Shown here one piece after another: positions 25,398-29,044 of a stretch of 64,000 bases of DNA. The translations under genes and the position numbers were made by a program. Location of the stretch: the NCBI GenBank assembly GCA_902526825.1, contig CABZMN010000003.1, forward strand, positions 1 through 64,000, in the 5' to 3' direction. The notes beneath the pieces are model-generated. The model searched no databases. It had not been told where the DNA came from and was given only the letters and a program-made list of their open reading frames with translations. Source of the stretch: an uncultured Candidatus Actinomarina sp. (GTDB taxonomy: Bacteria; Actinomycetota; Acidimicrobiia; Actinomarinales; Actinomarinaceae). Within the stretch, counting starts at the first letter, position 1; every line of letters starts with the position of its first letter.

Positions 25398-25471
25398 GGG
25401 CGCTTAGCTCAGTCCGGCAGAGCGCTTCCCTTACAAGGAAGAAGTCACAGGTTCAAATCCTGTAGCGCCCA
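25398..25471 (+). tRNA. tRNA-Val (anticodon UAC)
   Basis: Cloverleaf: acceptor GGGCGCT/AGCGCCC, D-arm GCTC..GAGC, anticodon arm CTTCC-CTTACAA-GGAAG, T-arm ACAGG-TTCAAAT-CCTGT, discriminator A. Confidence 0.95.
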
Positions 25472-25483
25472 CAAGGGTTTTTC
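25429..25483 (+). repeat. att-like repeat copy 1 (3' half of intact tRNA-Val plus 12 bp)
   Basis: CCTTACAAGGAAGAAGTCACAGGTTCAAATCCTGTAGCGCCCACAAGGGTTTTTC, identical to 26682-26736. Confidence 0.9.
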
Positions 25484-25504
25484 CAAAAATATTATTAGAA
25501 AAAC
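25476..25504 (+). terminator. Inverted repeat just downstream of tRNA-Val (possible terminator)
   Basis: ggtttttc ... gaaaaacc 8-bp stem separated by caaaaatattatta. Confidence 0.45.
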
Positions 25505-25549
25505 CTAATCACACACACATTTCACACACATTTTTGAGATAATTGTTTT

Positions 25550-26539
25550 GTGCAAGTATCAAAAGAGTTCAAAAAAACAATCAATAGGAATCCGTTTAAT
25601 GAAAAATTAATTCATAGATATTACTTAGAGTCTTTATATTTCTTTGATAATACGATTGATAAGTCTTCTTTAATACCAAAATTAGAAAACCCAAGGATAA
25701 AATTTAACAATCTAGCATTAGTGGTTCCAGAAGATGCAAGAAAGATTGGATATAGACCCGATTTCACTTTGTACTTTAAAAACTACCAAAAAGAAGTGCC
25801 CGTAGAGGTCAAGTGGAAGTCAAGTGAATTCAATAAAAAGAACCAAATTGATTATATAAAAAATAATAATGGCTTTTTGGTTGTGTTTGAAAATGATTCT
25901 GAGGTTGGTGTTCCAACTGTTGTTATAAATTCAAAAGACTTTCAAGAATGGATGGCTAAAAGAATTTATACATTAACTAGAGATTCTTTGAATAGTAAAA
26001 ACATAGGGGACACAACTGGAAATAAATGGTTAGTCGCATTAAGGGGTGAAAGCCCAATGATTAACTTTAAAAGAATGATGAATGCTACTAATCAAAATTT
26101 TTGGGCTTTTAAAAATTCGAAATATGTCACAAACCAAATATTTAATTTACAAAAAAATGACAAAATGATTTTTCTTTTTTTTAAGAGTCCGAATACTGGA
26201 ATGGGTATGACTTCAGGTCAACAAAACAAAAAAATTGAGATTCTGGGTTGGGCTGAGGTTAATATTATTGAGCCTTACTATATTTGTTTAGAAGGTGAAC
26301 AAGCAGAGTTTTTTGAAAAAATAAGAAAGCAAAATAATCAAATAGTTTCTGTTGCTGACAGAAAATGGGTTCATTTTATAGATTTCAAAATTAATGAATT
26401 TCAAGACAATATCTCAATAGTTAGAAGAAGAGGACAATTAGATAATTACTTGGTAAATTCGAGCAATCAAGGCGGTGCCTTGACATCAATACCTCAAAAT
26501 ATATATGAAGATTGTATTTCATATATAAAAACTCAGTAA
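25550..26539 (+). CDS. PD-(D/E)XK nuclease-like protein with possible EVE/PUA-like C-terminal domain; candidate modification-dependent (type IV-like) restriction enzyme
   Basis: RPDFTLYFKNYQKEVPVEVKWK (D71...E86-x-K88) followed by a Q...Y helix (NQIDYIK); C-terminus WLVALRGESPMINF...FWAFKNSKYVTNQIFNLQKNDKMIFLFFK...IEILGWAEV. GTG start. Confidence 0.5.
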   Translation: MQVSKEFKKTINRNPFNEKLIHRYYLESLYFFDNTIDKSSLIPKLENPRIKFNNLALVVPEDARKIGYRPDFTLYFKNYQKEVPVEVKWKSSEFNKKNQIDYIKNNNGFLVVFENDSEVGVPTVVINSKDFQEWMAKRIYTLTRDSLNSKNIGDTTGNKWLVALRGESPMINFKRMMNATNQNFWAFKNSKYVTNQIFNLQKNDKMIFLFFKSPNTGMGMTSGQQNKKIEILGWAEVNIIEPYYICLEGEQAEFFEKIRKQNNQIVSVADRKWVHFIDFKINEFQDNISIVRRRGQLDNYLVNSSNQGGALTSIPQNIYEDCISYIKTQ

Positions 26540-26597
26540 AAACACACACACTACACACACATTTTCTAAAAAAACGTAAGATACATACTGATGTCTT

Positions 26598-26667
26598 CTA
26601 GTACTACCTAGTACAGCCGTTACATTTACTGATGTTTTAAATTGATACTCTCTAGTATTTTCTAGTA
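26598..26667. repeat. Paired CTAGTA direct repeats adjacent to att copy 2
   Basis: CTAGTA at 26598, 26608, 26652, 26662: two pairs, each with 10-bp period. Confidence 0.75.
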
Positions 26668-26681
26668 TTCAAATAATCATT

Positions 26682-26736
26682 CCTTACAAGGAAGAAGTCA
26701 CAGGTTCAAATCCTGTAGCGCCCACAAGGGTTTTTC
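26682..26736 (+). repeat. att-like repeat copy 2 (tRNA-Val 3' half fragment)
   Basis: 55/55 identity to 25429-25483; no 5' half of tRNA upstream. Confidence 0.93.
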
Positions 26737-26790
26737 AGAAATCTTTACATAAATATGTAGCTCAACCGAACAAAAACCGAACATTTTCAA

Positions 26791-26796
26791 TAAAAT
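26791..26796 (+). promoter_or_regulatory. -10-like element TAAAAT, 6 nt upstream of ATG (leaderless-type)
   Basis: TAAAATgacactATG; the 42 bp upstream of the start is about 36/42 identical to the region upstream of 27815. Confidence 0.5.
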
Positions 26797-26802
26797 GACA
26801 CT

Positions 26803-27582
26803 ATGAAAAAAATAGCTGTTGTAATTATGTTTTTTTCATTTTGTGGTGGGTCCGATGAAACAATTGAACCATTAACAACGACAACTACATCTACAACTTC
26901 AACAACCACAAGAGATGAAGATACGACAACTACATCTACTACTGATACACAGTCAATAAATAATGATTGCCCCGAAAAGTTATTGTTTGACACTCCTGTT
27001 GATCTAAATTTGGTTACTTCAATTTTATATCCAGGACAAATCAGAGCTAATTATTTTAAACCACACGGTGGATTTAGATTTGATGGCTTAGGTGATAACA
27101 ACAACAATATTACAGTGAAGATCCCAATTGATAGTTTTTTAGTGCTTGGTAGTAGATATATTGTTGAAGGACAAGTTCAGTATATGTTTGAATTTAATAC
27201 AGCTTGTAATGTGAAATTTAGGCTTGACCACTTACTTGTATTATCTCCAAAATTACAAGAAATTGCAGATAATCTTCCCGCTCCAAAAGAAGGGGAAACA
27301 AGAACAACGAATCTAGAAAATGTAGAGTTTTTAAAAGGTGAAGTGATAGCTACCGAAGTTGGAATATTAAATAATGTATTCGTAGATTTTGGTATATATG
27401 ACTATAGAAAAGAAAATGAGGCAAGCAAAACTTCAGAATTAGTAAAATCGTTTGGATATGAAATTGCCAAACATGCAGTTTGTTGGTTTGATTGGTTAAC
27501 TCCTAATGACGAAGAAATAGTTAGAAATTTACCACCCTCTGGGAATGAGGGCAGCAGTAGCGAGTATTGTAAAAATAATTAA
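26803..27582 (+). CDS. Putative surface lipoprotein with Thr-rich stalk
   Basis: MKKIAVVIMFFSFCGGSDE signal/lipobox-like, TTTTTSTTSTTT linker. Confidence 0.7.
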   Translation: MKKIAVVIMFFSFCGGSDETIEPLTTTTTSTTSTTTRDEDTTTTSTTDTQSINNDCPEKLLFDTPVDLNLVTSILYPGQIRANYFKPHGGFRFDGLGDNNNNITVKIPIDSFLVLGSRYIVEGQVQYMFEFNTACNVKFRLDHLLVLSPKLQEIADNLPAPKEGETRTTNLENVEFLKGEVIATEVGILNNVFVDFGIYDYRKENEASKTSELVKSFGYEIAKHAVCWFDWLTPNDEEIVRNLPPSGNEGSSSEYCKNN

Positions 27583-27591
27583 TATGAAATT

Positions 27592-27765
27592 ATGAAGAAA
27601 TACAAAAATGAATTAGGTGGTTTATTTGCTCTTTTAACTATAGTCTGGTCAGTATTTCGCGCTCTTCGCTCAAGCTACACTCCAACTCAAGCAATTCTTG
27701 TTGCTATATTTATGTATATTGGAATTCGTTTAACTTACTTCGTTTATTTTAAAAATAACAAATGA
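27592..27765 (+). CDS. 57-aa small membrane protein
   Basis: ATG...TGA ORF: MKKYKNELGGLFALLTIVWSVFRALRSSYTPTQAILVAIFMYIGIRLTYFVYFKNNK, two hydrophobic segments; below the ORF-track length cutoff. Confidence 0.55.
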   Translation: MKKYKNELGGLFALLTIVWSVFRALRSSYTPTQAILVAIFMYIGIRLTYFVYFKNNK

Positions 27766-27814
27766 TAACTAACTCAACCGAACAAAACCCGAATATTTTT
27801 AATAAAATGTAAAT

Positions 27815-28813
27815 ATGAAACGATTACTTATTTTTTTAATTCTAATTTCATTTTGTGGTGGAAGCTCTAATTCATCTTCAACAGCAGAAACTACTGTAAA
27901 GGAGACAACAACTACTGTAAAAGAGACAACCACTACTGTTGCCCCAACAACAACTACATCAAGTACAACAACTACATCAAGTACAACAACTACATCAAGT
28001 ACAACAACTACTGTTGCCCCGACAACAACTACATCAAGTACAACAACTACTGTTGCCCCGACAACAACTACTACAACACTACCTGAATATATTTATGAAG
28101 TTGTTAACGTAGACAACCCCCCATTTTGGGGAACTATATTTATAACTGGAAATATAATTACAGAAAACGATCCCTCAACTTATCTATCGCAGGAATATAA
28201 AGGAATCGATTACAGATCAATGTTTGATAGAAGAAAAGCTAGTTTTTCTAATATGGAAGCTCATATATTTGATACTTATTATTCAGATGATCATTACATT
28301 GAGGTACAAGTCAATTCAGAGTTTACTTTTGAACAAGCTGAGTTAGAAAGCTATAAATATGCATGGTTAATAGGACAGCTTCCTAAAGTTTTAAAAAAGG
28401 ATATCGAGACAGTTTGGATACATAAAGGTAATAATGATTGGGGAGGTGGAAATAATAATATCTTAATTCACACGGGACAAACTCCTGAATATGAGAACTA
28501 TTCTACTGGAAATATAGTTGAAGAAACTCTTATTCATGAAGCAGCACATTCTTCAATTGATGCCTATTATTACGGTACTTCTGAATGGAATGAACAGGTT
28601 AAAAATGATGGAAACAAATATGTAAGTACTTATGCTAAAGACTTTCCGAATAGAGAAGATATAGCGGAAATGTTTCCACTTTATATAGCTGTAAGATATT
28701 TTCCAGATAGGATTAGCGAAGACGTTAAAAATAAATTTTTAAGTACTTCTATAAATCGAGTTAAATACTTTGACAGTCAAAATTTAGACTTTTCTATTTA
28801 TATTGATGATTAA
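27815..28813 (+). CDS. Putative lipoprotein with Thr-rich repeat stalk and HExxH metallopeptidase-like domain
   Basis: MKRLLIFLILISFCGGSSN signal; TTTTSS/TTTVAP repeats; LIHEAAHSSIDAYYYG...REDIAEMF zincin-like motif. Confidence 0.7.
   Translation: MKRLLIFLILISFCGGSSNSSSTAETTVKETTTTVKETTTTVAPTTTTSSTTTTSSTTTTSSTTTTVAPTTTTSSTTTTVAPTTTTTTLPEYIYEVVNVDNPPFWGTIFITGNIITENDPSTYLSQEYKGIDYRSMFDRRKASFSNMEAHIFDTYYSDDHYIEVQVNSEFTFEQAELESYKYAWLIGQLPKVLKKDIETVWIHKGNNDWGGGNNNILIHTGQTPEYENYSTGNIVEETLIHEAAHSSIDAYYYGTSEWNEQVKNDGNKYVSTYAKDFPNREDIAEMFPLYIAVRYFPDRISEDVKNKFLSTSINRVKYFDSQNLDFSIYIDD
27895..28080. repeat. Thr-rich coding tandem repeats (18-bp and nested 39-bp units)
   Basis: acaactacatcaagta repeated; acaactactgttgccccgacaacaactacatcaagt repeated. 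Confidence 0.85.
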
Positions 28814-28959
28814 TTAATTTCACACCCACAAAACACCCACAAATTTCTTAAAATTATAAATACTCTCTGATAACTTCTGATATCTTTTTGAGAAAGCATA
28901 ATTTCATTGACTCTATAAATTGAGACTCTGTGATACAACCTAGTATTTATTAGTTCTTT

Positions 28960-29014
28960 CCTTACAAGGAAGAAGTCCTAGGTTCAAATCTTGTTGTGCC
29001 GACAGGGGTTTCTC
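28960..29014 (+). repeat. att-like repeat copy 3 (degenerate tRNA-Val 3' fragment)
   Basis: 47/55 identity to copy 1 by eye; first 18 bp CCTTACAAGGAAGAAGTC identical. Confidence 0.85.
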
Positions 29015-29044
29015 AAAATTTATTTTGGAATATTTAATATTAGT

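Follow-up and report, generated by a model that had tools for sequence, protein, structure and literature searches.

A candidate single-protein modification-dependent nuclease, predicted PD-(D/E)XK with an EVE-like reader domain, in a tRNA-Val cassette of Candidatus Actinomarina

A role as type IV restriction enzymes has already been predicted for fusions of EVE domains with PD-(D/E)XK nucleases (Bell et al. 2020, PMC7641849). The 5mC/5hmC-dependent endonuclease VcaM4I, in which an EVE domain precedes an HNH nuclease, restricts modified DNA and makes use of two residues, W82 and Y130 (PMC7897488). Type IV restriction is also served by the YTH reader of T. gammatolerans (6p0g), which lies within the McrB protein of a McrBC system, and by CMoRE, a one-protein enzyme with an N-terminal GIY-YIG nuclease and a C-terminal modification sensor (PMC12923530). 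As for the carriage of genes, gene cassettes targeted to tRNAs and bounded by direct repeats are described in passages on the island fGI1 of Ca. Actinomarinales (PMC7771536).

The protein considered here has 329 aa and comes from an uncultured Candidatus Actinomarina sp. of the order "Ca. Actinomarinales" (OCS155), whose assembly measures 0.88 Mb and is 74.6% complete. The window, that is, the whole stretch of DNA analysed, comprises 64,000 nucleotides of it. With a probability of about 0.72, the protein is a single-protein type IV (modification-dependent) restriction nuclease, consisting of a reader and a PD-(D/E)XK domain and carried as the cargo of a cassette. Its two-domain architecture and predicted role are the same as those of the EVE-PD-(D/E)XK enzymes of PMC7641849, and since these were predicted in 2020, it appears to belong to a new, unnamed family of a known kind. 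At the thresholds applied, nothing in Pfam, NCBIfam or PADLOC matches this family. VcaM4I is alike in its size (about 310-330 aa for both), in the union of an EVE-family reader with a nuclease and in having no methylase partner, whereas its nuclease is HNH and its EVE domain comes first; here, the nuclease is predicted to be PD-(D/E)XK and the EVE-like domain comes last. The C-terminal half matches the T. gammatolerans reader in fold, but in the present protein reader and predicted nuclease form one polypeptide. CMoRE, likewise a single protein, has the same order of nuclease and sensor with a different nuclease.

The gene (25550..26539, + strand, GTG start) lies directly 3' of a tRNA-Val(TAC), in a region of envelope-sugar genes near ribonucleotide reductase. 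A sequence-only reading of this DNA had described it as the sole large gene of the first cassette (cassette 1), encoding 329 aa. The reading frame does exist as described, and no other ORF of at least 60 aa is present in that cassette. Comparison with the copy of a sister species, 92% identical in protein, gives 34 non-synonymous and 94 synonymous changes and a dN/dS of 0.053. This strong purifying selection indicates that the nuclease gene is selected for its protein. The dN/dS and two full-length relatives at 40-43% identity show that the gene is genuine and not a chance reading frame.

Three relatives were found, in the sister species (92%), in a member of the Nomurabacteria (L080, 40%) and on a prophage contig (L081, 43%). 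The sister copy (genome G023) sits at the same tRNA between the same flanking repeats, with 87% DNA identity, and the window genome and G023 are the only 2 of 42 genomes of the genus that have the gene. The two distant relatives were retrieved by profile-guided scans, and both align over the full length. The homologue set therefore comprises four sequences, in incomplete genomes. No relative was detected in 50,697 phages, in 72,556 plasmids, in some 600 further genomes from the class and phylum or in 379 further ones from the Nomurabacteria phylum, and by sequence the protein matched nothing in Pfam, NCBIfam, PHROGs, PADLOC, the PDB sequences and the viral contigs. Weak matches in the phylum (E 0.02-0.1) were dismissed as chance, being short and in some cases interrupted by stop codons. 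Defence genes typically show such a sparse and patchy occurrence among distant hosts.

The N-terminal domain (residues 1-147; 25550..25990, +) is a predicted PD-(D/E)XK nuclease. The core had been placed at residues 69-90, with D71 and E86-x-K88 followed by a Q..Y helix, and these residues, the last two being Q99 and Y102, do occur at those positions, in the predicted active-site stretch D71-x14-E86-x-K88-x10-Q99-x2-Y102 (25760..25855, +). D71, E86, K88 and Q99 are conserved without exception among the four homologues, whereas Y102 varies; a FNEKLIHRY motif near the N-terminus is likewise invariant at about 40% identity. The pattern D-x13-15-[DE]-x-K-x9-12-Q-x2-3-Y is matched by 5 of 317 ORFs (106,826 aa) from tRNA-Val loci, namely the window gene and the copy in the sister species, besides two HsdR proteins and a single NucS_C protein, and Pfam assigns the latter three to HSDR_N or NucS_C, both of which are PD-(D/E)XK families. 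Shuffles of the 329-aa protein matched it in 143 of 20,000 cases; as the pattern was derived from the protein itself, the specificity test is partly circular for its gene. The fold was not recovered: the pLDDT of this half is mostly <50 in the AlphaFold2 model built on the four-sequence alignment, and profile comparison of the half with Mrr_cat, HSDR_N and NucS (four sequences, Neff <2) gave no match. A model made from the single sequence (pLDDT 33.6) was discarded, together with its Foldseek matches, as too poor. The PD-(D/E)XK assignment thus rests on the conserved motif and its spacing, so that the earlier claim stands as regards the residues and not as regards a recovered fold; a nuclease of this class is well supported by the motif, though not by structure.

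The C-terminal half had been likened to EVE/PUA-type base readers, and here structure prediction was more informative. AlphaFold2, run template-free on the alignment of the four homologues (A6), gave a model with a mean pLDDT of 59.6, confident mainly in the C-terminal half, in which values are mostly 60-89; the predicted EVE/YTH-like modified-base reader domain covers residues 155-329 (26012..26536, +). When the model was compared with the PDB by Foldseek, as the sequence-only reading had advised for this half, nearly all matches were EVE and YTH readers of modified bases, and the best 33 were EVE or YTH domains throughout, with E down to 8.2e-5 and a probability of 1.00. They include the EVE structures 2p5d, 2ar1 and 2eve, human THYN1 on 5mC DNA (5j3e) and YTHDF2, and the McrB reader 6p0g is among the matches likewise. 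The best-ranked are EVE domains, a 5mC-DNA complex among them. The superposition is modest, with a TM-score of about 0.5 on the target and an rmsd of 7-10 A over the aligned part. The probability of 1.00 to EVE structures places the half in the EVE/PUA superfamily as regards domain fold, not binding. By profile, the half has no match to Pfam EVE (PF01878) even at E 10. In profile-profile comparison, the EVE domains of the class were the best of the profiles tested, though weak (E 0.007, probability 5%, against E 0.02 for the best unrelated control; only four sequences, Neff <2). The domain is thus EVE-like by fold and not a member of PF01878 by profile. Six aromatic residues, W160 (codon at 26027, where the earlier reading had this half begin), W185, F187, Y243, Y244 and W273, are invariant in the four homologues, and by analogy with W82 and Y130 of VcaM4I they are candidates for a base pocket.

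The same fold matches bear on whether DNA or RNA would be the target. YTH domains, which read m6A in RNA, are prominent among them, and RNA is the target predicted for the CoCoNuT type IV systems in passages of PMC11090510; the protein could accordingly act on modified RNA (m6A-like marks, tRNA or mRNA modifications) as an abortive-infection or RNA-restriction effector. We consider this unlikely, as EVE domains rank best and include a complex with 5mC DNA, the active-site spacing is that of the DNA restriction enzymes HsdR and NucS, and in VcaM4I, the EVE-nuclease fusion that has been characterised, the substrate is DNA (PMC7897488). For a DNA-directed type IV enzyme, 5mC or 5hmC is favoured as the substrate from the EVE and THYN1 matches, and 6mA is possible because YTH domains match too.

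What we infer about cleavage, substrate, base flipping and phage restriction can be put together as follows. The C-terminal EVE/YTH-like domain would recognise a modified base, most likely flipped from the duplex into an aromatic pocket as in VcaM4I. The N-terminal PD-(D/E)XK domain would then cleave the DNA, with D71 and E86 holding metal ions and K88 as the third catalytic residue. A methylase partner would be unneeded because, as we propose, the host is without the modification. The gene would be spread by the small cassette at tRNA-Val that carries it as cargo and has no integrase.

The absence of a methylase partner, claimed for the neighbourhood of the gene, agrees with what was found in the 74.6%-complete host assembly. 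The genome-wide methylase search covered the C5 class (PF00145) and found no member in the window, sister and Nomurabacteria genomes and the prophage record (G000, G023, G665 and G666; incomplete genomes), and no methylase adjoins the sister or the prophage copy. Beside the relatives lie defence candidates. That of the prophage is set among cargo genes between Rha and lysozyme, with an FRG gene (PDC-S15, 4e-104; a defence candidate), a HEPN gene and a gene for a small REase-like protein as neighbours. In the Nomurabacteria, a 486-aa gene (L080:7004-8464) which matches the defence candidate PDC-M36A (1.9e-11) stands 1 nt downstream of the relative. This second gene has a possible PD-(D/E)XK end, and the two together may make up a two-gene variant of the system. 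At the same tRNA-Val or its repeat, sibling cassettes carry genes for NgoPII with a C5 methylase, type I R-M, NucS_C, HNH, T5orf172 GIY-YIG and TIR (ThsB-like) proteins, and lipoproteins as well. This context of defence neighbours and restriction genes lends support to the stand-alone anti-phage role that had been thought plausible. Two further cargoes were observed at these loci. One is a 300-aa gene (L063:8888-9790, -) whose product ends in a NucS_C nuclease and matches DUF3427 weakly in the N-terminal half, a candidate for another reader-nuclease at the same tRNA; the other encodes a 173-aa protein starting MELDFEFELSKGKQNSLGETLKVVEHIQ, which recurs among the cassette cargo of at least five genomes (L035, L062, L063, L065, L069).

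The complete NgoPII-methylase pair of a sibling cassette and the tight linkage of the Nomurabacteria copy to its second gene would also suit a former type II enzyme that has lost its methylase, or a nuclease in need of a partner, the EVE-like domain then serving only to recognise an unmodified DNA target. Such an origin appears improbable. No C5 methylase was found in the four records (incomplete genomes), and neither the sister nor the prophage copy has a methylase beside it. Moreover, a type II nuclease without its methylase would harm the host as a toxin, and this gene nevertheless shows strong purifying selection.

The boundaries of cassette 1 are well marked. The tRNA-Val(TAC) that is the integration target (25398..25472, +; ARAGORN) bears the first copy of a core repeat (25429..25488, +; the 3' part of the tRNA followed by AAGGGTTTTTCC), as it does in the sister genome (L053) and at most other loci fetched from the genus. 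This copy is a 97% direct repeat of the second one (26682..26741, +), at which the cassette ends. The core repeat has 60 bp, composed of the 3' part of the tRNA and AAGGGTTTTTC, and it was found in 40 of 42 genomes of the genus, matches to paralogous tRNAs counted. Inside the core repeats, a left terminal pair of 11-bp-period repeats (CACACACATTTCACACACATTT; 25512..25533, +) recurs in kind at the right end (26543..26561, +), where the pair is identical to the left one at 17 of 19 positions and lies 139 bp before the next core repeat. CTAGTA/GATACT-type repeats, common to many cassettes, occupy 26592..26672 (+), just upstream of the second core repeat. Between the orthologous nuclease cassettes of the two species, the terminal repeats differ in one word: where one cassette has CACACACA, its counterpart has CACGCACA, and this holds at both ends.

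The nuclease gene thus sits in a cassette of the kind described in passages on fGI1 (PMC7771536), in which terminal repeat pairs and this gene do not figure; the word integrase is absent from the main text of that paper. As the sole gene of a mobile cassette without an integrase, the nuclease might be thought to drive the movement of its own cassette in the manner of a homing endonuclease. This is very improbable, and such a role was rejected because cassettes with different, unrelated cargo share these boundaries, both the core repeat and the type of terminal repeats; moreover, no tRNA gene was found near either distant relative (L080, L081).

The terminal pairs are a wider property of these tRNA-Val(TAC) loci (L033-L072). 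Across the genus, 36 cassettes running from repeat to repeat were delimited, and in 20 of them an 11-bp-period pair follows the core repeat at a short distance (mostly 22-30 bp). For 17 of these 20, the best-matching right-end stretch lies 135-141 bp ahead of the next core repeat; in 16 of the 17 this stretch is clearly the same pair, the exception being cassette 2 of the window (11/19). Left-right identity averages 17.3/19 against 12.6 in shuffled pairings (maximum 14.5 in 1,000) over 14 distinct sequences; cassettes whose repeat type is of common ancestry are not independent, so that this test is only a guide. The exceptional cassette 2 (26742-29018) carries lipoprotein-like ORFs along with small ones. 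Its left pair (AACCGAACA) is unlike its right pair (ACACCCAC, ~28821-28841), and given these mismatched ends and an inner AACCGAACA-like copy at ~27777, it may consist of two fused cassettes.

No integrase was found within the cassettes delimited in the genus. In most genomes of the genus, the recombinases are one or two proteins of about 300 aa, which are probably XerC and XerD; one clear extra recombinase (339 aa) lies beside a tRNA-Leu in G035, two small fragments occur in G002 and G001, and no serine recombinase was found in genomes of the genus. Passages of PMC7771536 report a tRNA-Val prophage in one member of the order. A helper phage was sought by the 41-base core in viral contigs, where none was found, and by searches with two repeat types, which gave chance or coding matches only. 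The terminal repeats look like the arm-type integrase sites of elements moved in trans, and possibly each pair is a helper-specific arm site. It is conceivable, though we regard it as rather doubtful, that the 1.25-kb unit of two tRNA-Val core repeats, matched terminal pairs that are specific to the cassette and set at constant distances, and one type IV nuclease gene is a minimal integrase-less element, which a tRNA-Val phage integrase recognising the repeat type would move in trans. The hotspot would then hold helper-specific, phage-satellite-like cassettes with anti-phage cargo.

The finding provides a new family of stand-alone PD-(D/E)XK-EVE nucleases that is concrete and testable, and the anatomy of the cassettes makes the movement of integrase-less tRNA cassettes testable as well. 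If active, the nuclease could serve as a compact tool to map modified DNA. The family is common to very different hosts, namely streamlined marine Actinobacteria, Patescibacteria and a prophage, reduced genomes among them. Activity of the enzyme would also mean that phages of Actinomarinales carry modified bases.
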